Below are positions 9,296 to 23,078 of a stretch of 64,000 nt of DNA, piece by piece. The DNA lies in the NCBI RefSeq assembly GCF_027912455.1, contig NZ_CP115446.1:1015501-1079500 (forward strand). Reading direction: 5' to 3'. Source of the stretch: Aurantiacibacter sp. MUD61 (GTDB lineage: Bacteria; Pseudomonadota; Alphaproteobacteria; Sphingomonadales; Sphingomonadaceae). The notes beneath the pieces were generated by a model, which was given only the letters and a program-made list of their open reading frames with translations, was not told the DNA's origin and ran no database searches. The position numbers were made by a program, and so were the translations under genes. Position 1 is the first letter of the stretch. Each line of letters begins with the position of its first letter.

Positions 9296-11170
9296 TTATC
9301 CCTTCACTTCGGGGTGGATGCCTGCGCCCTGCGCTTCGCCCGGCCCTTCGGACTGACCGGCAAGATCGTCGCCGACATTGTCGTCTGTCAGCTTGTCGAG
9401 ATGCATCAGCTTCTTCACCAGCGGGCTGACGATGGTGACGAACACGCCGATGCCGACAGCCACAAGGCCCATGGCCCAATAGACTTCCAACGCGGCTTCG
9501 CGAGTCATGTCGCCGCCTTCGCCTTCACCCATGAGCGAGCCCATGAAGCCGGCGACGTAGTTGCCGCCTGCGGTGCCGAAGAAGAAGGCTGCCATCATCA
9601 GGCTGGCCATGTGACGCGCCGAGAGGCGGTTGATCGCCGAAAGGCCAACCGGGCTGAGGCAGAGCTCACCCGTGGTCGACAGCAGGTAGAAGAGGAACAG
9701 GAACAGCACCGGGGTCAGCAGCGCGCCGCTTTCACCCGTAACGCTGAACTGCTCTGCACCCCATACGAAGACCACGAAGGCGAGGCCCATCTGCACGATG
9801 CCGAGACCCATCTTGGCAATGGCGGAGGGTTCCCACCCGCCGCGCGCCATCCACTGCCATGCGGCGGCGAACAGCGGTGCGAGCACGATGATGTAGATCG
9901 GGTTGATCGACTGGAAGAATGTGGTCGGGATACCGCCGCGATCGACATGGCGATCGGTGTAGAGGTTCATCGAGCCACCGGCCTGTTCGAACAGCCCCCA
10001 GAAAAGCGGCATGAGCAGGATCACGAAGATCATCGCGAACACGCGGTCACGCGCATAGTTCTCGCTTTTCTTCGCTTCCATCGCGCTTGCTGCGATGACT
10101 AGGATGAGGCCCAGTCCGCCCACTGCGTTGGAAATCAGGCTCGTGCCGTTCTGGTAGAACATCAGTGCTGCCGCAACCAGCAGCGCAGCCACACCGCCGT
10201 AGAAGATGCCGGTGGTCGAGCCCTTGCTGACCGTGCCGTCTTCACCCGGCAGCTTGTACAGCGCCTGTTGGAGCACATAGCCGAGCAGCAGAATGCCCGA
10301 GAGCAGGAGAATCCAGCCGACAGTTTCCTGATACTGGATCAGCACCCAGATCACCGCAACACCGACAAGGCCGACGACATACAGCAGCCACTCGAGATTG
10401 AGGCCTGCTACCTTTTCCTTGAGCTTGGCAGGAACGGGCGATTCGCCATTGCCGCGCAGCAGCGATTTGCCGAGCACGAACACGACGAGGCCCAGCAGCA
10501 TACCGAAGCCGGCAAGGCCGAAGCCCCATGCCCAGCTTACCGTTTCACCGATGTAGGCTGCGATCAGCACGCCCGTGGCCGCGCCGAGGTTAATGCCCAT
10601 GTAGAAGATGGTATAGGCGCTATCGCGGCGAATATCGGTACGCGGATAAAGCTGGCCGACCATCACCGAGATATTGGCTTTCAGGAAGCCCGAGCCGACG
10701 ATGATCAGCGCCAGAGCGAGCCAGAAGATGTTGACCGTGGAATCGTTGGCATAGCCCGAACCGTCCCCTTCAAATGCCATGAAGAAGTGACCTGCCGTCA
10801 GCAGCACGGCACCGAACAGTACTGCCTTGCGCTGGCCGAGGTATTTGTCAGCCAGCCAGCCGCCCAGCACCGGAGTGATGTAAACGAGGCTGGTGTATGC
10901 ACCATAGATGAGGTTCGCATTGCTATCGTCGAAAAGCCAATGCTTGACGAGGTAGAGCGTCAAAAGCGCGCGCATGCCGTAATAGGAGAAACGCTCCCAC
11001 ATTTCGGCGAAGAACAGCATGTAGAGGCCCTTGGGGTGGCCCAAAACTTCGTCCTGCGGGCGCGTGATGGCAAAGGCGCCGCCAATAAGGAAGCCACCCA
11101 GCACTAGGACGGAGATCGCCGCCGCCCAGTCTGCATAATTCCACAGCGCAAGCTCTTTAAGTTCGGTCAT
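9296..11170 (-). CDS. Proton-dependent oligopeptide transporter (POT/PTR2)
   Basis: Inner-membrane di-/tripeptide:H+ symporter of 624 residues with about 14 hydrophobic helices. The family signature is WERFSYYGMRALLTLYL, and GINLGAATGVLIAAY marks the second PTR2 motif. The start at 11170 (MTELKELALW) was chosen because the first helix follows directly; the frame stays open 36 codons further upstream, but that stretch has no transporter character. It leads a cluster with two exported amidohydrolases. Confidence 0.92.
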   Translation of the reverse strand: MTELKELALWNYADWAAAISVLVLGGFLIGGAFAITRPQDEVLGHPKGLYMLFFAEMWERFSYYGMRALLTLYLVKHWLFDDSNANLIYGAYTSLVYITPVLGGWLADKYLGQRKAVLFGAVLLTAGHFFMAFEGDGSGYANDSTVNIFWLALALIIVGSGFLKANISVMVGQLYPRTDIRRDSAYTIFYMGINLGAATGVLIAAYIGETVSWAWGFGLAGFGMLLGLVVFVLGKSLLRGNGESPVPAKLKEKVAGLNLEWLLYVVGLVGVAVIWVLIQYQETVGWILLLSGILLLGYVLQQALYKLPGEDGTVSKGSTTGIFYGGVAALLVAAALMFYQNGTSLISNAVGGLGLILVIAASAMEAKKSENYARDRVFAMIFVILLMPLFWGLFEQAGGSMNLYTDRHVDRGGIPTTFFQSINPIYIIVLAPLFAAAWQWMARGGWEPSAIAKMGLGIVQMGLAFVVFVWGAEQFSVTGESGALLTPVLFLFLFYLLSTTGELCLSPVGLSAINRLSARHMASLMMAAFFFGTAGGNYVAGFMGSLMGEGEGGDMTREAALEVYWAMGLVAVGIGVFVTIVSPLVKKLMHLDKLTDDNVGDDLAGQSEGPGEAQGAGIHPEVKG

Positions 11171-11381
11171 ATTGTGCGAATTCCCCGTGAAACATTTATC
11201 GGCTCTTCCCAAGCCTTCTTGATCGGGCCTCTCTGGCGAGGCCGCATTGCGCGGGCACACTAACGATTGTTTTACCAATGTGAAGCCGTTTCGGTTGCCC
11301 GCGAAACTATCCCGCCATCCCGGCTACGGGCCTTAGGCCTACTTGACCTGACACGCTGTATTATGGCAGTGATGCACCATC

Positions 11382-11720
11382 ATGGCTGACACAAAACCCG
11401 TTTACCTTCGACTGCGCGAGCAGATTGCCGCCGCCATCATCGATGGGCGGTATGGTGAGGGGGAAATGCTCCCATCTGTGCGCGCATTCGCCGCAGAGCA
11501 GGGTGCCAATCCGCTGACTGTCGCAAAGGCCTACCAGCAATTCCAGGCAGACGGTCTCATCCGTGTGCAGCGCGGGGTGGGTATGTTCGTGCGCGAAGGT
11601 GCCTCGGCCAAGCTCCTGGAAAGCGAGCGGGACACGTTTCTGCAGGACGAATGGCCGGGCATTCGCCGAAAGATGACGCGTCTTGGCTTGTCGGTATCCG
11701 ATCTGGTCGAAAACGCCTGA
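11382..11720 (+). CDS. GntR-family regulator, YtrA-like short form
   Basis: A 112-residue transcription factor with the GntR winged helix (VYLRLREQIAAAIIDGRY, then LPSVRAFAAEQGANPLTVAKAY, and GLIRVQRGVGMFV). The C-terminal part is only about 40 residues, matching the dimerisation helices of the YtrA subfamily and too short for a FadR or HutC ligand domain. It stands divergent from the POT transporter gene, with 211 bases between the start codons, and 174 bases upstream of ihfB; its targets may be either. Confidence 0.87.
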   Translation: MADTKPVYLRLREQIAAAIIDGRYGEGEMLPSVRAFAAEQGANPLTVAKAYQQFQADGLIRVQRGVGMFVREGASAKLLESERDTFLQDEWPGIRRKMTRLGLSVSDLVENA

Positions 11721-11811
11721 TCGCAGCTATAACTCGGCTCCTGCCGACGCTCAGATGAAAAATTTTGTGAAATTTCAGTCGCGGGATTGCGCCGCGTGGC
11801 GTTGTCTGGCA

Positions 11812-11827
11812 ATTTACATATGTAAAT
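11812..11827. promoter_or_regulatory. Perfect 16-bp palindrome upstream of ihfB
   Basis: ATTTACATATGTAAAT is a perfect inverted repeat, 67 bases before the ihfB start and 91 bases after the GntR gene stop. Symmetric A/T-rich sites of this size are typical operators for dimeric regulators, and the YtrA-type protein next door is a candidate binder; that link is inference. Confidence 0.4.
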
Positions 11828-11894
11828 GCGCTTCTACTAAGCGCACCGATTGCAGTTGATGCGGGTCGCACCATCACCCGATCGGGGAGGTAAC

Positions 11895-12176
11895 ATGATC
11901 AGGTCCGAGCTACTTCAGGCGCTAAGTGCAGATAATCCAGATCTCAAACCCGAGGAGGTTGAGCAGGTTGTCGACATTTTCTTCGATGAAATCACCACGC
12001 GTCTGGCTGAAGGTGGCAGAGTGGAATTGCGCGGTTTCGGCACATTCACCACGCGCCAGCGCGAAGCGCGCACTGGGCGCAATCCGCGCACCGGCGAAGC
12101 CGTCGATGTCCCGGCAAAGCGCGTGCCTTACTTCAAACCGGGTAAGGAAATGCGCGAACGGCTGAATCCCAGCTAA
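11895..12176 (+). CDS. ihfB: Integration host factor, beta subunit
   Basis: A 93-residue nucleoid protein that bends DNA as a heterodimer with IHF alpha. The HU/IHF fold is complete: helices MIRSELLQALS and VDIFFDEITTRL, the GRVELRGFGTF strand pair, and the DNA-intercalating arm with RNPRTGEAV. ATG 11895 has GGGGAGG seven bases upstream; an upstream in-frame start at 11850 would add a tail not seen in the family. IHF commonly assists tyrosine integrases, and an integrated element lies just downstream. Confidence 0.93.
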   Translation: MIRSELLQALSADNPDLKPEEVEQVVDIFFDEITTRLAEGGRVELRGFGTFTTRQREARTGRNPRTGEAVDVPAKRVPYFKPGKEMRERLNPS

Positions 12177-12266
12177 TCAGCATTACCGACAGACCGCAAT
12201 TTGCGACGAATTGCGGAACACTTCGGCAGTTTCAGGGGTTTCTCTTGTAATTAAAGGAGATACCTC

Positions 12267-12503
12267 ATGATTGGTAAGATTATCGGTGCAGTGGTCGGCG
12301 CACGCGCGGCCCAAAATGTTCGCAGTATCGAAGGCCCGGGTGGCGCAGTGCTGGGTGCACTTGCGGTACCCATCATTTCGCGTCTGCGACTTCCCACGCT
12401 GCTCGCACTTGGTGCGGGCGGATATTTTATCAAGAAAATGGCTGACAAGGAAAAGGCCGCCACTGGCACGCCTGTCGGCACCGGGACAACCTCCACGAGC
12501 TGA
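12267..12503 (+). CDS. Small glycine-rich membrane-associated protein
   Basis: Encodes 78 residues, start ATG preceded by AAAGGAGA. The N-terminal two thirds are Gly/Ala-rich and hydrophobic (IGAVVGARAAQNV, GAVLGALAVPII, LALGAGGYFIKK), suggesting a pair of short membrane-inserting helices; the tail is Thr/Ser-rich. I do not recognise a named family. It is followed by a good rho-independent terminator. Confidence 0.7.
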   Translation: MIGKIIGAVVGARAAQNVRSIEGPGGAVLGALAVPIISRLRLPTLLALGAGGYFIKKMADKEKAATGTPVGTGTTSTS

Positions 12504-12523
12504 TCCCGAGCCATAGGAATTAA

Positions 12524-12557
12524 GCCCGCCCTTGCTTCATGCAGCGGCGGGCTTTTT
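12524..12557 (+). terminator. Rho-independent terminator
   Basis: GCCCGCC (12524-12530) pairs with GGCGGGC (12546-12552) over a 15-base loop, followed by five T. It closes the small glycine-rich gene. Confidence 0.8.
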
Positions 12558-12650
12558 CGTTCGCCCAGCTGGTCGAATGCAGGAATCTGCGAGCATGGGC
12601 ACCAAGGCGATTGCCTTCGTCCGCGCGATCCGTTTAGGCAGCTTGCCCAA

Positions 12651-12735
12651 GCGGGCGTGGCGGAATGGTAGACGCCGGGGACTTAAAATCCCCTGATCTT
12701 TGATCGTGTGGGTTCGAGTCCCACCGCCCGCACCA
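12651..12735 (+). tRNA. tRNA-Leu (anticodon UAA)
   Basis: An 85-base class II tRNA. Acceptor strands GCGGGCG and CGCCCGC pair perfectly and CCA is encoded. The anticodon arm is GGGGA-CTTAAAA-TCCCC, giving anticodon TAA. The long variable arm contains GATC-TTT-GATC, and the T arm carries GGTTCGAGTCC. Its 3' half from 12680 is repeated at 23021-23078, so this gene is the insertion site of the element to its right. Confidence 0.96.
12680..12735 (+). repeat. Left attachment repeat (attL) in tRNA-Leu
   Basis: Two blocks shared with 23021-23078: 19 bases covering anticodon loop to variable arm (12680-12698) and 34 bases covering the rest of the tRNA with CCA (12702-12735). Between them this copy has TTT where the right copy has CTATA. 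Confidence 0.88.
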
Positions 12736-12797
12736 AGCTTTTCTGCCATTCTCGGCACAAGACGGGCAGCGCAGAAGTAGACTGACCCATGAGAAGA

Positions 12798-12813
12798 GGT
12801 AGTTTTGGTGTAA
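12798..12813 (+). repeat. Element-end repeat, left copy (possible integrase arm site)
   Basis: GGTAGTTTTGGTGTAA recurs with one change at 22865-22880 near the right end. The shared 11-bp core TTTTGGTGTAA is in the same orientation. It sits 62 bases inside the tRNA end. Subterminal repeats of this kind commonly bind the integrase N-terminal domain; this role is inferred. Confidence 0.45.
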
Positions 12814-12831
12814 CCGCGGTCAATCGGACAC

Positions 12832-13959
12832 TCACGCTGAAACACTTCGCTCCAGCGCGACCATCGCCTCATCGATGCTCCGATCGGCGAGGTGGGTGTA
12901 CCGTAGCACCATGGCAAAAGTTTTGTGTCCAGTGACCCTCTGAACAGCTGGGAGCGGCGCTCCTGACGCTACGAGCTTCGTTGCCGCCGTATGGCGCATA
13001 GTGTGGGGTGTTACCATTTCCGGCGAAAGACCTGCTGCCCGCACGGCGCGCTTGAAAGCACCATTGAACTCATTGACGTGCCCAGTGGCCGTTCTTGTCG
13101 ATGGGAATATCCAGCCGTTGCGATCAGTTCTGCGCTCGCGCTCACGTCGCAACAGTTCCACGAGGGATTTCGTGAGCGGTTGTGTGCGGTCACCTGCCTT
13201 TGCCTTAGGCAGATAAAGACGGCAATTCTTCCAGTCGATGTGGTCGAAGCGTGCGGAGACAATCTCCGCTGAGCGCATTGCCGTACCCAATCCGAACTCG
13301 ACGAATAGCCAAAGCAAGGGGTGGCTATCTCGCTTTGCAGCCTCAATGAGGAGATCACATTCGTGATCTGATAGAACTACCGTTCGTCCTTCCGGCTCTG
13401 CTAGTTTCACGATTGAGCAGGGTGTTCGGCGCAGCTTGCGTCTACGGACCCCCATGTTCCAGACGTGGCTGAGCGTCGCTAGATCGCGATTGACGGTTGA
13501 GGGGGACAGGCCGCTCTGCACCATCTCCTGGCAGTATCTCCCGATGTGTTCTTCAGAAATTGTTTCTAAGACAAGATGGCCGAGCTTGGGGACCAAGCGA
13601 CGTTCAAGGTGGAGACGCTTCCGTTCGAGGTTCTTTCCGCCAGAGGCTTCGATCTCGTCCAAATACCAAGCCGCGAGTTCGGCGAACCGGAGTGGTGTTT
13701 GTCGACCTCTGGGAAGAGTGTCTAGACCGTCGCGGATGTCTGCTCTGATTTGATCTCGAACTTCAAGAGCTCTGGTGGCGTTCCAATTCTCGCTCTTGAG
13801 GCCCAGCACCCTTTTCACGCGCTTCCGTAGATATATGAAGGCGAGCGACCACTTCTCATCGCCGTCTACGAGCTTCTCAACCGTGATACCGTACTCAGTG
13901 AGGCGTTGCCCAGGCGCAAGATTGCGGCGGTTGGCTGGAGTTATGACTTGCAGCGTCAA
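12832..13959 (-). CDS. int: Tyrosine-type integrase of the island
   Basis: A 375-residue site-specific recombinase. The SAM-like core-binding domain spans roughly residues 90-175 and the catalytic domain 190-370. All catalytic landmarks are present: Arg in G-T-A-M-R-S-A-E, the H-T-M-R-H box, His in T-G-H-K and the nucleophile Tyr in LRYTHLAD. Its 3' end lies 97 bases from the tRNA-Leu gene, the usual placement for tRNA-targeting integrases. Seven bases separate it from the ribbon-helix-helix gene upstream, so the two are likely co-transcribed. Confidence 0.95.
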   Translation of the reverse strand: MTLQVITPANRRNLAPGQRLTEYGITVEKLVDGDEKWSLAFIYLRKRVKRVLGLKSENWNATRALEVRDQIRADIRDGLDTLPRGRQTPLRFAELAAWYLDEIEASGGKNLERKRLHLERRLVPKLGHLVLETISEEHIGRYCQEMVQSGLSPSTVNRDLATLSHVWNMGVRRRKLRRTPCSIVKLAEPEGRTVVLSDHECDLLIEAAKRDSHPLLWLFVEFGLGTAMRSAEIVSARFDHIDWKNCRLYLPKAKAGDRTQPLTKSLVELLRRERERRTDRNGWIFPSTRTATGHVNEFNGAFKRAVRAAGLSPEMVTPHTMRHTAATKLVASGAPLPAVQRVTGHKTFAMVLRYTHLADRSIDEAMVALERSVSA

Positions 13960-13966
13960 GGCGTGA

Positions 13967-14401
13967 TCACCTCAGATCCAGCTTGCGACGGCGGGTCGGC
14001 CGCGGCTTTTTGACCGGGGGCGCTGGTTCGTTCGGCAATCCAAGTTCGGCCGCAAGCGCGGCAATCGACTTGGTTAGCTCATCCGACAATCGGTTTACGA
14101 GCTTACCTGCGGCCTCTGACCATGCAGAAAGATCATCGGTTGTATCGTGATCGGGCATTGATCTGATGATGGAGGCCTCGAAGGATCGAAGAGGCGGCGC
14201 AAAATGCCGCTGGAAGTCGTCCTCCGCGTTGAGCCCCTGAACAAGTATGGCCTCTGCAGCCTGACTGATCGACATGTTCGAGACGATTGCCTTCTTCTCC
14301 AACCTTTCCATGGTCTCGTCAGTTAGCTTCGTCGCAAATGATCTCGTCTTGCCTCCGTACGGCCCTCGACGAGGCGCTCCCCTTGCCTTTTTCTCGCTCA
14401 T
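13967..14401 (-). CDS. Ribbon-helix-helix-like regulator or mobilisation accessory protein
   Basis: A 144-residue basic protein. An N-terminal K/R/G-rich tail precedes a strand-helix-helix pattern (TRSFATKLTDETMERLEKKA, then SISQAAEAILVQGL), as in Arc/MetJ or MobC-type proteins. The C-terminus is again strongly basic (PRPTRRRKLDLR). The start ATG at 14401 has GGAGAAG upstream; the frame stays open another 77 codons upstream without family character. Divergent from the AlpA-like gene across a 109-base spacer, so it may control both directions. Confidence 0.65.
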   Translation of the reverse strand: MSEKKARGAPRRGPYGGKTRSFATKLTDETMERLEKKAIVSNMSISQAAEAILVQGLNAEDDFQRHFAPPLRSFEASIIRSMPDHDTTDDLSAWSEAAGKLVNRLSDELTKSIAALAAELGLPNEPAPPVKKPRPTRRRKLDLR

Positions 14402-14510
14402 TCTACACTTCTCCAAATTAATATCGAAAAGTGTATATTTTTTGTTGCCAAGTGCGTCAAGCAGGTTTAGGTGGCGCCTCACCGACCACGATGAGGAGAA
14501 GCAGCCAACC

Positions 14511-14729
14511 ATGATGCAGCGACGTGTGAGAGAACGACAAATGATCGTCACGCCTGACGGAAGGATGACGCGCTCCCACGCTGCGAAGTATCTGGGGGTG
14601 GCTGAGCAAACCCTCGCCAATTGGCGCACCAAGGGACGAGGGCCAAAGTCGTTTCGTTTGGGCGGGAAGGTATTCTACCGTCTGACAGACGTACAGGCTT
14701 TCATCGATGAGACGATGCAGGGTCAGTAG
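14511..14729 (+). CDS. AlpA/excisionase-like helix-turn-helix protein
   Basis: A 72-residue DNA-binding protein: a MerR/Xis-type HTH is visible as TRSHAAKYLGVAEQTLANWRTKGRGP followed by the wing FRLGGKVFYRLTDVQAFID. Such proteins act as excisionases or as activators of int on islands. GAGGAGA lies about 12 bases before the ATG; an inner ATG at 14541 is possible. The TAG stop overlaps the GTG of the reverse transcriptase reading frame (TAGTG), suggesting coupled translation. Confidence 0.8.
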   Translation: MMQRRVRERQMIVTPDGRMTRSHAAKYLGVAEQTLANWRTKGRGPKSFRLGGKVFYRLTDVQAFIDETMQGQ

Positions 14730-14743
14730 TGCAACCGGTTGCA
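14730..14743. promoter_or_regulatory. Palindrome TGCAACCGGTTGCA, left copy
   Basis: A perfect 14-bp inverted repeat at the junction of the AlpA-like and RT genes. The same core occurs as a 16-bp palindrome at 22807-22822, so both may be sites for one island-encoded dimeric DNA-binding protein. Confidence 0.45.
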
Positions 14744-15226
14744 ATTTCACCATCGATGCGAAGTGCGGATGACCTCATTCGATTGATTGCGGCAGGCAGT
14801 CTTGATCCGGCAAGCGTTACCGTCGAGGAAGAGACTTCCATGATGAGGTCTTTCCGCGCGAAAGAGAGAAAGCTACACGACCGGCTGGTAGATGCGTTGG
14901 CAAATGGCCGAGGTAGGATTGCGCGCAAGGAAAGCGAAAGACTTCGGCGCAGCTTGTCTACACGGTACCTAGCTCTCTGGCGGGAGAAACCCCGCACGCT
15001 GGCGGATCGGCCGAAGGACCCGCAATTGAAACGAGCAATCACGCGGGCAGAGCGCATCCGTCAAATCCTTACTTTGCTGAACCGCGTGGGCCGTCTCAGC
15101 GAACCAGCATGTGCGGTGGTCTACGCTAAGCCCAAAAAGAGAAATCAGTCTTTTCGCGATGTACGCGCACCGAAGCCTTCGCTCACGAGCGGCGGTACGC
15201 TTGATCGACGCGTAATCTTCAAGTTC

Positions 15227-15270
15227 GGCTGGACGCAATCAGGCGCGCCAGCGCCTGATTGCGTCCAGCC
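15227..15270. repeat. Perfect 20-bp stem / 4-base loop hairpin inside the RT gene
   Basis: The arm 15227-15246 is the exact reverse complement of 15251-15270 around the loop GCCA. It spans the point where the RT coding frame changes. Both arms encode conserved RT residues in their own frames (FGWTQ and QRLIASS). Confidence 0.9.
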
Positions 15271-16087
15271 TCAAACCATTCGCAAACTACCACCCCTCCC
15301 AGTACATGTTGACGGGGCGTGGGCGGTCGGCGGTTTGCGAGTATCTGCGCCAAGAGGTTCCGAACCTCTCAGCAGACCATGTGTTTATGCAGGTAGATGT
15401 CAAAGATTTCTTCGGCTCTATCAGCTCAGCATGGATAGAAGGCCGTTTCCGTCTGGCGGAAGCAATCATTCGGCGTCAAATGCACTCCGGTGAGATGCGT
15501 ATTCTCATGGACAGAAGGGCTAGGGCCTACCTTCCAGGTGGCGAACTAAATGAACGGGTCCGGCGCGTGTTACCACAGGGGTCGGCGTTGTCTCCGCTGG
15601 TTGCCGAAATGGCGATGGCCGAAGTGCTGGAGGGACTGGCTGACCACCTCCGCTGCACCTTGGTCGTCACCTACTCGGACAATTTGGGTATCTTTCTACC
15701 CGCAGCGCAGGCGGCTGCTATTGAGGACTGCCTTCGGAACGCCTTCGGCGTTTCCGGCGTCGGACCGTTCGAACTAACATTCTCTCGCCCGATACCGATT
15801 GCAGACGGCTTTTCATTCCTCGGTCATATCTGGAAGCTCGAAGCTGGAGAACTGCACACATTCGTTGATGAGCAGGTGGCCAATATGAGAGCAATCGTGC
15901 TTCGGACGCAACTTCTCAACTGTCTGACACATAACGATCTGAGCCGCGTCCGCTCCCGTATCTTCGGGCAAGCCAACGAATGGAAGTTTTGGCCAGGCAT
16001 TGCAGCTTGGAAGTCGGGGTTGCTCTTAGATTTAGAGCGAGCGCGGGAAGGATTGGCGGCTCGGTCAGCAGCTGACTGCCTCGCGGC

Positions 16088-16669
16088 CTAAGTTGGGGCA
16101 CCACAGTACCGATTGACCGTGGATTTTGAGATGGCGAACTCATCCATCGTCTCGCGTATTGTCGCGCGGTTTTGTTCGCGCCACTCCCGGACCGCCGATG
16201 GGTCTGCAGCCAGAGGTCTGCCTAGGCTCGCCTTGCCTCGATGCGTTTTGCCGGTTTCGCTGAGTGCTTTGCGCGCGGCTGCTCTGCCTGCCTCGCATCG
16301 CTCACGGATGCGTTGCCGCTCCATGTCAGCGATCTGTGCAAGCACCGCTACGATAAGCTCGCCGACACCCTTGCCAATCGGTCCAAGCCCTAGCACGTCA
16401 AGCATGATGCCCTCTTCTAGCAAGCGGCGCACAGTCGCTTGAACGTCGAGGGCATCGCGCCCTAACCGATCGAGTGCATAAACGCACACGGTGTCGCCAT
16501 CTCGAACGTAAGACAGCAACTCCCCGAAGCCTGGCCGCGCGGCGGCCAGCGTGGCACCGCTAATCCCCTCGTCATAGAACTCACGATCGAACGGCCCAGC
16601 CAAAGCACTGCGCTGAGCTTCGACACTCTGCGCACCAGTGGATACGCGATAATAGGCGATACGGCTCAT
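16088..16669 (-). CDS. Serine recombinase, resolvase/invertase family
   Basis: A 193-residue site-specific recombinase. The nucleophile Ser lies in AYYRVSTGAQS near residue 9, and the arginine-rich catalytic set follows in YALDRLGRDALD and MERQRIRERCEAG. A short C-terminal HTH (IRETMDEFAISKSTVNRYC) binds DNA. It has the size of Tn3-type resolvases and DNA invertases. The stop overlaps that of the convergent RT by four bases. Inverted and direct repeats just upstream of its start look like a recombination or operator site. Confidence 0.92.
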   Translation of the reverse strand: MSRIAYYRVSTGAQSVEAQRSALAGPFDREFYDEGISGATLAAARPGFGELLSYVRDGDTVCVYALDRLGRDALDVQATVRRLLEEGIMLDVLGLGPIGKGVGELIVAVLAQIADMERQRIRERCEAGRAAARKALSETGKTHRGKASLGRPLAADPSAVREWREQNRATIRETMDEFAISKSTVNRYCGAPT

Positions 16670-16684
16670 TCAATTCTCCAGGCC

Positions 16685-16781
16685 CCAAAAGTTACCTCGT
16701 CTGTTTTGGGCACCCCAAAACAATGATTGCCTATCTTATGGGCCATTGGGGTCAAGCCGATTTACTGGATCCAAAAGTTAC
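16685..16781. promoter_or_regulatory. Putative resolvase res/operator site
   Basis: Immediately upstream of the resolvase start: an 8-bp inverted repeat GTTTTGGG-CAC-CCCAAAAC (16703-16721), and an 11-bp direct repeat CCAAAAGTTAC at 16685-16695 and 16771-16781. Res sites of serine resolvases normally lie next to the gene and also serve as its operator. Assignment is by position and symmetry only. Confidence 0.45.
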
Positions 16782-16811
16782 AATTTCTGCGACCAGACTT
16801 CGCGCTGCCCT

Positions 16812-16922
16812 GCACATATACGGGCGGTTATTCCGAATGTATGGGAAGATATTCGCGCGTATATCTCGCGTAAATGCACGCATATACGAACATTTCCCTT
16901 GCCATAAACCGCCACATATGCG
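16812..16922. promoter_or_regulatory. Iterated ATATACG-type motifs upstream of the defence-module operon
   Basis: Four related elements in about 110 bases: CACATATACG (ends 16822), CGCGTATAT (16856-16864, inverted), GCATATACG (16880-16888) and CACATATGCG (16913-16922). They lie 50-160 bases before the first gene of the GHKL operon. The 304-base space 16670-16973 has no convincing gene; a 68-codon open frame in it has no recognisable features. Confidence 0.4.
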
Positions 16923-16973
16923 TTCATAGTGTCTGATCGAATCGGTTGAAATTGTGAGACGGAGTGGTGCAAC

Positions 16974-17204
16974 ATGGTTGAATCGGCGGAGAAACATGAG
17001 AAGTTTCTGGAACTTGCGGAGGGGCGAACCAATAAGGCCTTGCTTGCCATTGGTAGGATCGGGAATCTCTCGAACCGTTCGCTCTATGAGTGGGAAGAAG
17101 CTGAGCTCCGCAAGATGATTAAGGCGCTCAAGGATGCCATCTCAGAAGTGGAAAACCGCTTTGCATCTCCGAAGGGAAAAGCGAATGCCAAGTTCAAGTT
17201 CTGA
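16974..17204 (+). CDS. Small helical protein at the head of the GHKL operon
   Basis: A 76-residue charged, mostly alpha-helical protein (KHEKFLELAEGRTNKALLAI; EEAELRKMIKALKDAISEVE) with a Lys-rich tail. CGGAG precedes the ATG. Its last 20 bases overlap the start of the GHKL ATPase gene, so the two are translationally coupled and the products probably act together. No family is recognised; an accessory or antitoxin-like subunit is possible but unproven. Confidence 0.7.
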   Translation: MVESAEKHEKFLELAEGRTNKALLAIGRIGNLSNRSLYEWEEAELRKMIKALKDAISEVENRFASPKGKANAKFKF

Positions 17205-19602
17205 AACAGACACCGCGATTGACGCGGATTTCCTTCTCCCGGAGAATATTCCAATCGATCCGGAGGCGACCCTGAACCAGCTTACGGGGCGCTTCCGCTC
17301 CTTGCGTGATGGCCTCGCAGAATTGATCAAGAATTCTAAGGATCAGTATTCTCGCCTCGGAATTTTCGAACCTGAATGGCGGCAAATCATTGTCGCTCTC
17401 AGCACAACAAAAAAGACGCTAGCAGTAATCGATTTCGCTGGCGCACCATCTCGCAATTTTGAGGGGTGGACTAAGTGGTCAGATCCTTCGGCTGGCCAAG
17501 TTGATCTCGCGTCCGACATTGAAGCCGGTCATGGGAACGGCGGGAAGGCGTTTATGGTCCGAGGGGCTACGAGGCGCGCGTTCCTCGACTCCACTTACGA
17601 AGGAAGGCGAACCAAGAAGGGCTTTGTGAACGACCAGCCGGGTCAGCGCTATCGCCCTGGCTTCGGGGTCGAGGATGGCCAAATTCTAGATGATGTGTCG
17701 AACGCAACTCCCACCGAAACGCTGGAACAAATTCTCCGATTGGTAGGAGCCGACCTCGATGATCTTCCGGAGCCCGCAAAAGCGGCCTACGCCAATAGGA
17801 ATGCATACACCGCGGCGTATGTGGAGGAAGTTGAAGATTGGCAGCGCAGGAATAAGCGCAAGCTTAGAAGTGCAGCTGCCGCAGAGATCGCTGAGATAAT
17901 CAGCACTCATGGCCAAACCTCTATGACAATTGAAACCTGCCACGTTTGGGTGCTCGTGGATGGGAATATATATGGCGGCGGCCCCATTCGGCCGGCGCTC
18001 ATCGAGCCATTTGCTGGATTTGAAGAGCCACGGATATTCGACATTCCGGATGTCCTGCCTGACCCCGAAACTGGCGAGGCTGTCAATATCCTCGAAGGTC
18101 AAGCTGGTGATGCGTACCTCAGCCTCCATGCGAGCGCAAAGCAACTTCAGATCTCGCAAGAGACACGCGCCAAGAATGTCATACGGGTCTGGAATAACCG
18201 CAACAATGTAGCGACGTGGCCCCTTCAAACATTACACCGGGTGAGCGCAGCTAGCTTCATCTTCGGCGAACTCCGATGCCCTTCGCTTTTAGGTGAGCAT
18301 CTAGCCGGAGCCGATCGATTGCATCTGAATGACACCGCTCTGGTTCGAGCCCTTGAGCACTGGGCGGGAGAGAAGGTGCAAGAACTTGCGAACGATCTCC
18401 ATCAAGCAATGGCCGAGAAAACAAACCCCAAAGACCGCGAGAAAGCCCGCAGCGCGCTCAACAACATAAGGAATCTGATGCGTAGATACTTGGAGTCTGA
18501 CGCTTCCGGTAGCTCTGAAGATAATGGTCAGGACGGCGCGCATGATGGGAATGGAGATGAAGGAGATCAGGAGTATCGCGAGCCAATAAAGTACGGACAA
18601 CGGGTTGATGAAATTTTGCTTGAGCGCAACCGCAATGATATTTCGCTTATCCGTGGAACGGCCGTGCCATTGCTTTTTAGTTGCATCGAACATGATCCTG
18701 AGACGATGGAGAGCCGTTCCGTGCGTAACGCTCCCCTCAAATTTGCTTGCGAACCAGCGGATCAATTCGAATTCGACGAGAACGGAATGCTGGAGGCAAA
18801 ATACGCTGGTCTGGGCAAGATTTGGTTAGAAAGCTTTGATGGTTCTGTCACATCGAATGCTGTCCAAGTGTGGGTCGCAAATGCAACGGACGTAACGATG
18901 GAACCATTGCCTACGGTTCTGAAACAAGGTGAAAAACGCCAACTTCACTTCACATTCGAAACAGATTCAGGGCCCTTGGATGGAGTGCTGGTGGAGGCCG
19001 AGGTCCACCATTCTGCGATGGGGCGAATTGGTAGGCATGGGAAGTTTACGGCAGGCCAAGAGGAAGGTGAGGCGAAGGTCCGTGTCCGCTTCGGCGATGA
19101 TGACGAAGCTTTCCGAGACTTCGTCGTTGAGGTCGGATCTGAGCGAATGCCGCCACCCGAAGGCAAGGCCGACGCCGGAAGCGATGTCCCAGAGATCCTA
19201 TTTTGCGGCGATGAGGCGCCTGGCATGAATGAGTTTCCTCCCGAGCAGCGCACAGTCACTGGGGGGCCAGAATTGCCCACGATCATCGAAGATCCGCTAT
19301 TTTCGAATGTCGTTTGGATCAATCCAGCCAGCAAAGAGGCTCTCCGCGTAAGAAGGACTGGGGGCGGCTCAAGCGGAGTAGGCCGGGTCACGTCGCGGAC
19401 GTTTATCCATTTCGTTGCGCTTAAATGCTTCGATATCCTCAAGCGTCTCTATGTCCGCCAGCAAATCGCAGGCAGCATGGTGACGGAGTTTCAGTATATG
19501 CAAGCGGCTACCGAAGCCGAGATGGAGTGTGCAGACTTCATCGATGCGGCTTGGGAGCTTGGCGACCAGCTGCTGTCGAAGGAAGGTCTCGCCGATGCCT
19601 AA
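17185..19602 (+). CDS. GHKL ATPase (MORC/MutL-like) with Ig-like domain, predicted defence protein
   Basis: An 805-residue protein. The Bergerat ATP-binding fold is clear: N-box ELIKNSKDQ (E46, N50, D53), VIDFAG (D83, G86) and the lid G-H-G-N-G-G-K at 115-121. After a transducer-like middle region there is an acidic Gly/Asp/Glu linker around 437-460. A bacterial Ig-like (Big-type) strand pattern spans about 572-652, with HGKFTAGQEEGEAKVRV, then a helical C-terminus (705-805). ATG 17185 is chosen for its AGGGA site; the frame is open 17 codons further. GHKL ATPases beside DNA methylases are known in predicted restriction-modification systems (the lineage that gave rise to MORC proteins). No nuclease motif is visible here, so the effector is unknown. 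The downstream gene overlaps by eight bases. Confidence 0.85.
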   Translation: MPSSSSETDTAIDADFLLPENIPIDPEATLNQLTGRFRSLRDGLAELIKNSKDQYSRLGIFEPEWRQIIVALSTTKKTLAVIDFAGAPSRNFEGWTKWSDPSAGQVDLASDIEAGHGNGGKAFMVRGATRRAFLDSTYEGRRTKKGFVNDQPGQRYRPGFGVEDGQILDDVSNATPTETLEQILRLVGADLDDLPEPAKAAYANRNAYTAAYVEEVEDWQRRNKRKLRSAAAAEIAEIISTHGQTSMTIETCHVWVLVDGNIYGGGPIRPALIEPFAGFEEPRIFDIPDVLPDPETGEAVNILEGQAGDAYLSLHASAKQLQISQETRAKNVIRVWNNRNNVATWPLQTLHRVSAASFIFGELRCPSLLGEHLAGADRLHLNDTALVRALEHWAGEKVQELANDLHQAMAEKTNPKDREKARSALNNIRNLMRRYLESDASGSSEDNGQDGAHDGNGDEGDQEYREPIKYGQRVDEILLERNRNDISLIRGTAVPLLFSCIEHDPETMESRSVRNAPLKFACEPADQFEFDENGMLEAKYAGLGKIWLESFDGSVTSNAVQVWVANATDVTMEPLPTVLKQGEKRQLHFTFETDSGPLDGVLVEAEVHHSAMGRIGRHGKFTAGQEEGEAKVRVRFGDDDEAFRDFVVEVGSERMPPPEGKADAGSDVPEILFCGDEAPGMNEFPPEQRTVTGGPELPTIIEDPLFSNVVWINPASKEALRVRRTGGGSSGVGRVTSRTFIHFVALKCFDILKRLYVRQQIAGSMVTEFQYMQAATEAEMECADFIDAAWELGDQLLSKEGLADA

Positions 19603-20290
19603 GATCCAAGCCGCCAGTCTTACAGCTGCACAAGAGATCCTACTCGGTGCATACACCATTGATAGCGCGGGGGAGCGTGAATTCTCAGAATGGGACCTCA
19701 CGGTTGCGACTTGGCAACGCAATCCCAATCGCTTTGGATGCCGGGGTTACGAGTCGAATTATCCGGACCACAAGCGCGTGATGATGGAGATAATGGGCAC
19801 GACGAAAAAGGATAATCCCTTGAGGCGTGGGTGGCTGGAGAAGGTGAGGCCAAACACCTATCGACTGACGGACCTCGGCATTTCTGAATCCGAACGTCTA
19901 ATGCAAGTCCGGGATGGAGCCGATCCTTCATCGACGCGATCACCTCAGGCCATTTATGATGCAGTGGCTCCTCTCTATAAGAGCACGGTCTTTCGAAAGC
20001 ACAGCCGCGATCCAGAAGAACCAAGAATGTGGCTCGGGGCGGCTTCATTTCTGCAGATGACAAAGAGTGATCCTCAGCACCTCGAAGATCGCCTTCGCGC
20101 AACAAAGGCTGCGATTGATAATGCAATTGCTTGGCTCGACGAGAACGATACCGATCATATCAATCGAGGTGTTTCTGGCGGCAGTGAAGCTATCTCGAAG
20201 AAGAGTTTGCTGCAGCTGGAAGAATTTTACGAGACGATAAAAAGCAGATTTTCCGGACAGATCAACGTGTTGCTACAATCGAGACGTTAG
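19595..20290 (+). CDS. Winged-helix-like protein coupled to the GHKL ATPase
   Basis: A 231-residue protein, start ATG inside the last codons of the ATPase gene. The N-terminal 110 residues have a winged-helix pattern (TAAQEILLGAYTI, then EFSEWDLTVATWQ, DHKRVMMEIMG, and LEKVRPNTYRLTDLG), as in DNA-binding 'transcription regulator-like' domains. The C-terminal half is helical and charged. No nuclease motif can be seen. Tight coupling suggests it is a DNA-recognition subunit of the same complex. Confidence 0.7.
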   Translation: MPKIQAASLTAAQEILLGAYTIDSAGEREFSEWDLTVATWQRNPNRFGCRGYESNYPDHKRVMMEIMGTTKKDNPLRRGWLEKVRPNTYRLTDLGISESERLMQVRDGADPSSTRSPQAIYDAVAPLYKSTVFRKHSRDPEEPRMWLGAASFLQMTKSDPQHLEDRLRATKAAIDNAIAWLDENDTDHINRGVSGGSEAISKKSLLQLEEFYETIKSRFSGQINVLLQSRR

Positions 20291-20354
20291 AGACGCATGA
20301 CGCGTAGGATAGCCTACCCTCTAGCTTGCTATCCCGTCTTCATATGCATCAAGA

Positions 20355-21503
20355 TCAAGTCTGTTCGCTGACCTTTTGTTGCCGATGCTTCGATGCGTGA
20401 GGCACTTTCGTTGGCCCACAATTCTCAAACTCCGAGATATAAACCCCGTCACAGCTTGCGACGATTTCAGAGGGAGAAAATCTTCCGATCGAATGTGTCG
20501 TGTAAGCCCAGTCTGCCTCAATCGAAAGCCACTTTCTTTCGAGGGACTGAGCGACAGATCCCGTTGTGTTGCTCCCCGCGAAAGGATCGAGGACCAAATC
20601 GCCCTCATCGGTGAGGAACCGAACGAAAAACTCGACAAGTGATGAAGGCATTCTAGCAGGGTGAATTTGCGCTCCTCTCGCCAGGCAAAACTTCCTATAG
20701 TCATCGCTAGAAAGTGTGTTTGCGGCCTTTAAGAGGTTTGTGTTTTGCTCAAGATATTCAGCGAAGCCGTTCGGGGTGATTAGTCGATCCAGAGAGGGTA
20801 CAGCATCCATCCCGCCGACGTTTGGTGGTATTGCCCCCTGGTTGTCAGTCTTGAAGCTATCCGCGCCAATGTTGTGCTCGGAGGGTCTCCCTCCCGCGTT
20901 ATATTTTCCTGTCTCAATGAGACGCTTCATGCTCGGGCTATACTCCCGTAGCACTTTCCGATTGTCTGCTTTGGGACGAGTGACTGGTGACATCCACCAA
21001 ATACGAGTGAAGGCATCTTTCACCCGGGATCGCTCCTTATTCACCCACTCGATCGGAGAAGGAAGGCGTGCAGGGTTATACCAGATGAACTCCTGACAAA
21101 GGTGGAGGTCACCCTTCTTTAAGAAGCTAAGGAAGGCTTCCAGCACGTGAGTTGACATGACCGGCTCGCCGGGCATCCACGCATTTCCGATCTCGATGAC
21201 GATAGAACCATCGTCGGTGACCATCTCGCGCAAGAGTGGCGCAAATTGCGCGAACCAATCGATGTATTCCTGCCCTTGCAGGTTGCCATAACTCTTCTTG
21301 GTGTTCAGCGGGAATGGAGGCGACGTAAAGGCAAGCTGAACCTTGCCCTTAAATGCCTCAAACGTCTTGGATTGCAGCAACTGAAGGGAGTCTGCGCAGT
21401 AAGCCGCCCCCAGTTCGGTTTTGTAGACCGGCGCAGTGGTGTGTCGACCTTGCTTGGGCTCGGGATCGATCTCAATTTGGTGCGTTTCGTCCCAATTCGA
21501 CAT
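20355..21503 (-). CDS. DNA methyltransferase, beta class (probable N4-cytosine type)
   Basis: A 382-residue SAM-dependent DNA methylase. The catalytic motif IV TSPPF lies at residues 60-64, and the SAM-binding motif I DPFAGSNTTG at about 306-315: the IV-before-I order defines the beta class, with the target-recognition region between. S-P-P-F is more usual in N4-cytosine enzymes, though N6-adenine activity cannot be excluded. ATG 21503 has AGGAA upstream. It converges on the GHKL operon with a 64-base gap, as expected for the protective partner of a defence module; the recognition sequence is unknown. Confidence 0.9.
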   Translation of the reverse strand: MSNWDETHQIEIDPEPKQGRHTTAPVYKTELGAAYCADSLQLLQSKTFEAFKGKVQLAFTSPPFPLNTKKSYGNLQGQEYIDWFAQFAPLLREMVTDDGSIVIEIGNAWMPGEPVMSTHVLEAFLSFLKKGDLHLCQEFIWYNPARLPSPIEWVNKERSRVKDAFTRIWWMSPVTRPKADNRKVLREYSPSMKRLIETGKYNAGGRPSEHNIGADSFKTDNQGAIPPNVGGMDAVPSLDRLITPNGFAEYLEQNTNLLKAANTLSSDDYRKFCLARGAQIHPARMPSSLVEFFVRFLTDEGDLVLDPFAGSNTTGSVAQSLERKWLSIEADWAYTTHSIGRFSPSEIVASCDGVYISEFENCGPTKVPHASKHRQQKVSEQT

Positions 21504-21710
21504 TCTAATTCCTGAGCGACCATTCTGTCTAACTGAACATTGACACCCGCCGGACCTTACCGGTGGCAACTCGCCGAACGCAATGCTTTCAGACGGAAGC
21601 CTCACAGCTCATTACTCACCTACTGTCAAGTGGTGCTGTGAAGAGGGGAGGTGACGATAGCCACATTCGCACCAAAGAGGCTGAGGCGTGGTCCGCGATC
21701 CTTTGCGGGG

Positions 21711-22379
21711 TCACTCCTCCGTTTCAGAGCCGGAGATGGGTGGGAAATAGAACGCCCACGACAGGCCGTAGTCGATAATGGTGCGCAGGAGAATAATGCA
21801 TAGTAGGCAAAGGGCAGTCCAAAACGACCATCCATGGATGCCTTTGACGATGATGACATCTATGACAATTATCAGAATAATCGTAATGACGTTTATGGCC
21901 GCCCATTTCATTTCGGCTTTTTGAGCATTTGAACCGGCGATACCAGCCGTCGCAAAGACGCCCCAGACACAATCAATCCCTAGCAGTGTGACAACGCCGA
22001 ACAGAAACGTCCTTGCATCATCAGCGTGCGCTGCGAGAAAAACGAAGGCGCAACCCTCCCCAAAGAGAACGAGAAAGTCGAAGAAAACCGCCCAAGACTT
22101 AACTCGCGTGCTGGCGCTCTGTTCGACATACGTCGCATATAGATGTCGCACTGCCCCATGATAGAAGGGGATGATAAGCGCAATGAAGGCCAAGAAATTT
22201 GCTAGGTGGATAGGGGAAATGAGGACCCCGGTATTGGCCGCAGCACCATTTTCGTTGGGCGCAAATGCGTTATACACACCAATCGTTAGCGCGACGCCAA
22301 CCACAACATTGTAAAGCTCGCACAGTTGTTTAACCGAATTGGCCCTTGCCTCTCTCGCGTTGACGACAGGAGTTTTCAT
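21711..22379 (-). CDS. Polytopic membrane protein of the island
   Basis: A 222-residue protein with about six hydrophobic helices (for example LYNVVVGVALTIGVYNAF, NFLAFIALIIPFYHGAV, WAVFFDFLVLFGEGCAFVFL, INVITIILIIVIDVIIV, ALCLLCIILLRTIIDY). No family is recognised. GGAGG lies just before the ATG at 22379. That ATG overlaps by two bases the ATG of the divergent DUF1937 gene (CATG), so the two genes share their start region and are probably a functional pair, perhaps enzyme plus membrane effector. Confidence 0.75.
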   Translation of the reverse strand: MKTPVVNAREARANSVKQLCELYNVVVGVALTIGVYNAFAPNENGAAANTGVLISPIHLANFLAFIALIIPFYHGAVRHLYATYVEQSASTRVKSWAVFFDFLVLFGEGCAFVFLAAHADDARTFLFGVVTLLGIDCVWGVFATAGIAGSNAQKAEMKWAAINVITIILIIVIDVIIVKGIHGWSFWTALCLLCIILLRTIIDYGLSWAFYFPPISGSETEE

Positions 22380-22770
22380 GCCCCCCTCCATTCTCGAAAC
22401 TTTCCCTCCAAATGGCCGCGACATTATCTATCTCGGCGGTCCCTATACCCATTCAGACCAAGCGGTGAAGGTCGATCGATACGAAAAGGTGACCAAGGCT
22501 GCCGCCCATCTGATCGAGAAGAAACTCATTGTCTACAGTCCACTAACTATGACCCATCCGATTGATGTGATTATGGCTGGTGAGGGAGAAACTTTGGGCT
22601 CAGATTATTGGGTCGCTTTCGATGAAGCCTTTATGGAACATTGCTGCGGGATGATCGTGCTTCAACTTCCCGGCTGGGACCAAAGCAGTGGGGTGAAGAG
22701 AGAGGTGGAGTTTTTTCAAGATAAAGGGCTGCCCGTTATTTTCCTCCAGCCCCAAGAGATAGGGGTTTAG
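22378..22770 (+). CDS. DUF1937 protein, nucleoside 2-deoxyribosyltransferase-like
   Basis: A 130-residue protein. IIYLGGPYTHSD near residue 16, YSPLTMTHPID, the acidic YWVAFDEAFMEHC and GWDQSSGVKREVEFF match the fold of nucleoside deoxyribosyltransferases and the DUF1937 group often seen in phages. Members of this fold cleave N-glycosidic bonds of nucleosides; the substrate here is unknown. AGGAG stands five bases before ATG 22378. It is the last gene before the right attachment repeat. Confidence 0.8.
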   Translation: MPPSILETFPPNGRDIIYLGGPYTHSDQAVKVDRYEKVTKAAAHLIEKKLIVYSPLTMTHPIDVIMAGEGETLGSDYWVAFDEAFMEHCCGMIVLQLPGWDQSSGVKREVEFFQDKGLPVIFLQPQEIGV

Positions 22771-22806
22771 CAGTTATTGGCCCACTGAAGCTAATTGCCA
22801 AACACG

Positions 22807-22822
22807 TTGCAACCGGTTGCAA
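22807..22822. promoter_or_regulatory. 16-bp palindrome, right copy
   Basis: TTGCAACCGGTTGCAA, a perfect inverted repeat sharing its 14-bp core with 14730-14743. It lies 36 bases after the DUF1937 stop. The surrounding 22771-23215 contains no gene, only this palindrome, the right subterminal repeat and the right attachment repeat. Confidence 0.45.
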
Positions 22823-22864
22823 AGGGGGGCGTGAACCGCCCCCCTTATGTCAACCGCAGTAAGG

Positions 22865-22880
22865 GGTAATTTTGGTGTAA
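22865..22880 (+). repeat. Element-end repeat, right copy (possible integrase arm site)
   Basis: GGTAATTTTGGTGTAA matches the left copy at 12798-12813 in 15 of 16 positions, same orientation, 140 bases inside the right attachment repeat. Confidence 0.45.
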
Positions 22881-23020
22881 TTGCCCAAGGGAACTTGCAA
22901 CAAATGTGGGTATCAATCGGTAATCGATGAGGACCCCAAGTTTCCAGCTTGTCGCCGAAATTCGCCACGGATGGGGCTCAGACGGAACGATCGGGATTGC
23001 GCGGTAATCCCCCGCGGCGA

Positions 23021-23078
23021 GACTTAAAATCCCCTGATCCTATAGATCGTGTGGGTTCGAGTCCCACCGCCCGCACCA
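23021..23078 (+). repeat. Right attachment repeat (attR): tRNA-Leu 3' half
   Basis: Repeats the tRNA-Leu sequence from anticodon loop to CCA, but lacks the 5' half and cannot be a gene. Shared blocks are 23021-23039 and 23045-23078. The variable-arm loop is CTATA instead of TTT, while the GATC/GATC stem is kept. This copy is probably the original host 3' end displaced by integration. Confidence 0.88.

Follow-up and report, generated by a model that had tools for sequence, protein, structure and literature searches.

A role in restriction has been predicted for prokaryotic relatives of the MORC proteins since 2008, when GHKL genes of the MORC and paraMORC kinds were described in restriction-modification (R-M) neighbourhoods; a minority of these have a methylase or endonuclease but lack a helicase (Iyer, Abhiman and Aravind 2008, PMC2292703). 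In the same account DNA looping by MORCs and paraMORCs, between recognition and cleavage sites, is proposed, and an RE fold is predicted for paraMORC3. MORC proteins of eukaryotes are reported to entrap DNA and compact it (PMC8277788, PMC12216690) and to silence mobile DNA. Among other systems with related parts, the CxC-ABC ATPase systems (PbeABCD) combine an ATPase with a small protein and in some cases also a cytosine-N4 methylase and MTaX1, a domain potentially involved in discriminating modified DNA (PMC10853773), and in Shedu with GHKL (VcSduA) the GHKL domain is thought to control the antiphage effector.

The locus described here lies in a 64,000-nucleotide stretch of the Aurantiacibacter sp. 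MUD61 genome (the window), and likewise places a GHKL+S5 ATPase beside a DNA methylase on mobile DNA. It differs from the MORC and paraMORC neighbourhoods in having no recurrent helicase or nuclease and no published MORC motif (GhXhhpXXRhl, as rendered into a pattern here, was found in S5 in none of 81 sequences across residues 200–480), and the accessible part of that account (PMC2292703) holds no mention of the Ig-like region or the 231-residue partner found in the module. With GHKL+S5, no MORC motif and an R-M neighbourhood, the ATPase fits paraMORC as a grade. The methylase is of the same family as that of the PvuII type II R-M system (M.PvuII, PDB 1boo), but is partnered by a GHKL ATPase pair, with no recognisable endonuclease. 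VcSduA carries a PD-(D/E)xK DUF4263 domain, whereas the window's ATPase, searched as an 822-aa frame at E 0.1, matched no Pfam family; and CxC-ABC/PbeABCD has an ABC ATPase and an HKD nuclease-helicase where the module has GHKL (PMC10853773). The module is real, conserved and mobile, and appears to be a variant of GHKL-based restriction, not a separate kind.

The island and its gene layout

The module is carried on a 10.3 kb island (12651-23078) in tRNA-Leu(TAA). ARAGORN places the tRNA gene at 12651-12735, and its 3' end (12702..12735, + strand) forms the left attachment repeat, which recurs exactly over 34 bases as the right attachment repeat (23045..23078, + strand). GC content is 0.543 between the repeats, against 0.611 and 0.618 outside. 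Besides the GHKL module the island carries a tyrosine integrase (12832..13959, - strand; PF00589, E 1.7e-31), a serine resolvase, a DUF1937 protein and a 237-aa protein whose family is unknown, and neither of the last two had a relative in the 15 loci related to the module. A reverse-transcriptase-like sequence at 14729-16091 extends over two overlapping frames (RVT_1 in 15306-16091) and looks broken.

Three genes of the module lie on the + strand and converge on the fourth. A small protein of 76 aa (16974..17204), an open reading frame whose family alignments (A7, A8) give an IGNLSNRxxYEY-like signature and whose family we call P76, overlaps by 20 bases an 805-aa GHKL ATPase (17185..19602), recognised from motifs, a structure model, fold matches and homologues. 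The ATPase frame in turn overlaps by 8 bases that of a 231-aa protein with a winged helix (residues 3-112) and a helical C-terminal half (19595..20290). The beta-class DNA methyltransferase (20355..21503, - strand; 382 aa, M.PvuII type, motif TSPPF; PF01555, E 1.9e-29; PDB 1boo, E 3.9e-74) lies 64 bases beyond the 231-residue frame on the opposite strand, and all four frames are open. This is the arrangement that the first-pass annotation had drawn from the letters, with the same overlaps and the same convergent methylase.

The annotation had also seen a methylase-linked GHKL module without a visible nuclease, and this was borne out in a module that is conserved and mobile and whose first three genes have no library models: their products matched nothing in PADLOC (at E 0.1) or NCBIfam, and no Pfam model above cut-off, while the methylase matched generic methylase models only in the three libraries. 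The M33A, M33B and M33C models of the PADLOC candidate PDC-M33 were likewise unmatched by the first three proteins at E 0.1. No restriction-nuclease model in these three libraries was matched by the ten island proteins scanned (13967-14632 was compared with PHROGs only, and 14274-14729 lay outside the scans), and no BREX or DISARM gene (PglZ, BrxC, DISARM helicase) was among the PADLOC matches listed for the ten, these being the best 25 of 56 for the methylase and the best 25 of 32 for the reverse transcriptase.

The ATPase, its 231-residue partner and the methylase

The motifs and structure model of the ATPase (pLDDT 86.3, pTM 0.57) show that its GHKL site is intact and is accompanied by an S5 transducer fold. 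The GHKL and S5 domains, in that order, span residues ~10-412 and are followed by a low-confidence linker (439-464), a beta-rich Ig-like region read as two domains (~476-655) and a mainly helical C-terminal region (~670-804), modelled as helices with few strands. The ATP-binding residues E46, D53, D83, G117, G119 and K121 are present in all 81 aligned sequences, and polar residues are also kept in the tail (C674, E718, R723, K747, K753 and E779 in 96-100% of the 81, C782 in 95%). The ATPase has at least 204 homologues, and an MTaX1 domain is fused to one relative (P0104). It is rare: in the phylum sample both it and the 231-residue protein occur in one of 299 genomes, that of the window itself. 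Fold matches gave GHKL+S5 and a winged helix, and not the known nuclease or known type of system which the annotation had named as the outcome that would overturn it, with the C-terminal regions of both proteins barely covered by the searches.

Fifteen related loci were gathered from scans of genome contigs (8) and viral contigs (6) and from a plasmid search (1, on an Ensifer adhaerens plasmid typed conjugative); their record titles, taken as given, include Alphaproteobacteria, Planctomycetota, Armatimonadetes and an archaeal MAG. Two of them (L007, L015) end inside the ATPase, leaving 13 with sequence beyond it, among which L013 and L014 look like near copies. A member of the 231-residue family lies directly downstream of the ATPase in 12 of the 13 and directly upstream in the remaining one (L018, E 1.2e-11). 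In 10 of the 13 the pair is directly adjoined by a methylase, which is convergent in nine (L005, L006 and L008-L014) and on the same strand in L016; in L017 it is ~4 kb off, and in L004 it lies upstream of the pair. Relatives of the window's methylase were found in 11 of 13, L010 having a different PF01555 protein (19% identical). No further gene family was found to recur beside the pair at E 1e-5. In L018 the gene directly after a distant GHKL relative encodes a fusion of a C5 methylase with Vsr and with a DUF559-like domain (10836-12635).

Identity distances of the ATPase and the 231-residue protein are closely correlated (r 0.98, Mantel P 0.0002), and those of the methylase follow the ATPase (r 0.52, P 0.003) and the 231-residue protein (r 0.55, P 0.002) less tightly, all over the same 11 loci (L010, L014 and L018 omitted), which include a close pair, L008 and L011, with 231-residue proteins 99% identical. 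The ATPase and the 231-residue protein are, on these sequence comparisons, one evolutionary unit and the core of the module.

The methylase, whose chemistry is probably N4-methylcytosine (m4C) to judge from its sequence, belongs to a wider family that is well represented on plasmids (2289 records at E 1e-5, 668 of which cover 80% of the protein). L006 and L004 have ATPases 86% and 231-residue proteins 91% identical, but methylases only 41% identical, and the L006 methylase is 74% identical to that of the window; the mismatch may reflect an exchange. Conversely, the methylases of L004 and L017 are 64% identical and their GHKL ATPases 25%. These two distant loci share, beside the GHKL pair, an McrBC-like cassette (L004 9710-13891, L017 12024-17274) of an AAA_5 ATPase, a ~410-residue protein with a PD...EVK stretch read by eye (43.8% identical over 400 residues between the two) and an M.PvuII-like methylase. 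The L004 methylase probably belongs with this cassette, so that L004 is perhaps two systems side by side. Taken with the co-divergence, these comparisons point to the restriction-side pair as the stable unit, with methylases and additional nucleases apparently gained and lost around it.

The P76 gene lies upstream of the ATPase in 7 of the 15 loci (L004-L007, L013-L015) and was not found in the other eight by a six-frame profile search at E 0.01. Co-occurrence of all four genes, as the annotation had envisaged, therefore did not hold. A strict four-gene unit was rejected, since these eight loci (L008-L012, L016-L018) lack the 76-residue protein and the methylase is tied less firmly to the pair. 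Homologues lie mostly outside the set for the 76-residue protein and the methylase, and not for the ATPase and the 231-residue protein. What stands of the earlier interpretation is thus a conserved methylase-linked GHKL module; a set of four gave way to a core of two.

Possible modes of action

The reading that we favour, with a probability of roughly 60% from sequence comparison and modelling, is that the module provides methylation-guided, restriction-like defence carried on a tRNA-integrated island. The methylase would mark host DNA (probably as m4C), and the winged-helix subunit would be the reader, loading the GHKL dimer on DNA which lacks the mark; with ATP, the dimer would close around the unmarked DNA, as proposed for MORC/MutL relatives, and block or destroy it. 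With lesser weight, the 76-residue protein would be an adaptor or brake common to several unlike GHKL-motif ATPases. A defence role is consistent with the conserved set, with mobility on island, plasmid and viral contigs with the restriction genes beside its kin (MTaX1, the Vsr fusion and the McrBC-like cassette) and with the published MORC and paraMORC neighbourhoods (PMC2292703); the rarity of the ATPase, a methylase family common elsewhere and loosely co-diverging, and the unrelated island cargo argue against it.

As no nuclease family recurs with the pair, the DNA would be either clamped or compacted and left uncut, or cut by a nuclease recruited from the host or a cassette; the same absence makes a block, or recruitment of a host nuclease, the likelier outcome. 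A more specific version, which we hold only tentatively, is restriction without cutting, in which a winged-helix-loaded MORC-like clamp would trap or compact, and so silence, foreign DNA lacking m4C, P76 being a shared licence factor of unlike GHKL defence ATPases. It is also possible, though again on the doubtful side, that the module is a conventional ATP-dependent R-M system whose nuclease is invisible in sequence, hidden in the ATPase tail (residues 670-804) or within the helical C-terminal half of the 231-residue partner, or supplied in trans by the host. The strongly conserved polar residues of the ATPase tail in the 81 sequences would suit such a site, and related loci do hold nucleases, namely the AAA_5 and PD...EVK cassette of L004 and L017 and the Vsr fusion of L018. 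However, the three restriction-side genes matched no nuclease model in Pfam, NCBIfam or PADLOC and their PDB sequence hits were at chance level, the helical tail with its few strands is unlike the RE fold predicted for paraMORC3 (PMC2292703), and the pair has no other recurrent neighbour. The absence of a nuclease is to be read with caution because the C-terminal regions were little covered and because L004, L017 and L018 have nuclease-bearing cassettes.

Two further explanations appear improbable. Abortive infection, with the ATPase complex directed against the cell once methylation is lost or a phage acts as trigger, would suit a methylase that could give antitoxin-like protection and a small protein whose position resembles that of the predicted small regulator of the CxC-ABC/Pbe systems (PMC10853773), but searches of the module in Pfam, NCBIfam and PADLOC turned up no toxin-like domain. 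Slightly less probable still is that the ATPase pair and the methylase serve the island as an epigenetic or stability module, silencing or protecting the element itself; residence on an island, a relative on a plasmid and the silencing of mobile DNA by eukaryotic MORC proteins fit this idea, whereas the relatives occur in other taxa and elements than the island, and restriction genes adjoin several of them as well as several other P76-preceded ATPases.

The module raises the question of whether DNA can be restricted by a bacterial MORC-like clamp that makes no cut. Being small, helicase-free and apparently nuclease-free, it offers a clean case for restriction by a GHKL clamp alone, which, if it occurs, would link bacterial defence with MORC silencing of eukaryotic mobile DNA.

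The 76-residue family and its ATPase partners

The part of the module likeliest to surprise specialists is P76, whose sequence could guide searches for further GHKL defence operons. The family lies mostly outside the module: a profile search gave at least 7566 proteins at E 0.001 among 7997 scored candidates, whereas the ATPase has at least 204 homologues, the candidate set being capped in both cases. In the phylum sample a first model detected the family in 6 of 299 genomes; a broader one detected it in 21 of 385 genomes of the class sample, four of these being only weak matches inside longer frames. No family model above cut-off was found in Pfam, NCBIfam, PADLOC or PHROGs, and no published description was among the literature matches listed, in which coverage of subscription papers is slight. 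The 69-residue 'DNA modification system-associated small protein' of plasmid locus L022, which occurs with a methylase and a helicase, shows no similarity to the 76-residue protein.

Neighbourhoods were read in two groups. The first comprised 16 loci, from five genomes, three viral contigs and 8 of 12 plasmid records (three viral contigs holding the module itself were omitted, as were four plasmid records, L004 and three apparent repeats); the second comprised 18 loci from 26 rows of the broader model, after omission of the window's own locus, two already examined and four weak matches, two rows being one place. In the first group, which has 15 usable loci, the next gene on the same strand was a GHKL-type ATPase in 11 (L033-L037, L041, L044-L046, L050, L051), L043 ending at the gene and L042, L047, L048 and L049 having no such ATPase next. 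The same was true of 13 of the 18 in the second (L078, L079, L081-L087, L089, L091, L093, L094; L083, L093 and L094 are broken or cut), while in L088 and L090, an identical sequence in two genomes, the ATPase is one gene further on, and L092 and L095 have none beside P76. In L080 (2844-5070) a P76 member precedes a DUF262-like protein (GmrSD-type, by eye), not a GHKL ATPase. Together, P76 directly precedes a GHKL-type ATPase in 24 of 33 loci; with 24 HATPase_c matches (23 over cut-off) in the 2.97 Mb of the window's own genome, and assuming ~2,900 genes, a GHKL neighbour would be expected by chance in ~1%. Alignment A8, on which the broader survey was based, is biased in that it comprises the 11 loci with an ATPase neighbour and five of the module's own family, and excludes five matches with no visible ATPase neighbour (L042, L043, L047-L049).

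The 24 partners are at most 85% identical to one another, and their GHKL label is by motif, except for L033 (L044-like), which passes HATPase_c. With patterns composed after such sequences had been seen, 22 of the 24 show an N-box within their first 140 residues, and 1 of 25 large frames of the window does so, the ATPase itself. Three partner groups are unlike the window's ATPase by BLAST, and profile comparison did not join them to it: an L044-like group, a group of 820-850 residues, and PDC-M33A and its kin (L034, L036, L050, L051), a P76 gene lying directly before the GHKL-motif protein M33A in L050 and L051. Restriction genes stand beside several of these P76-preceded ATPases, and in two loci of the 820-850 residue group (L035 10187-11443, L037 4459-5655) a PF01555 methylase converges on the ATPase, reproducing the window's layout with an unlike ATPase.

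One genome (G574) has four P76 places (L084, L086, L089, L094), each before a GHKL-motif ATPase and one copy broken. Reverse-transcriptase genes are divergent from the P76/GHKL pair in L033 (10283-12088, RVT_1 just under cut-off) and L034 (9280-10941), and their presence there and in the window possibly marks a shared defence hot spot.
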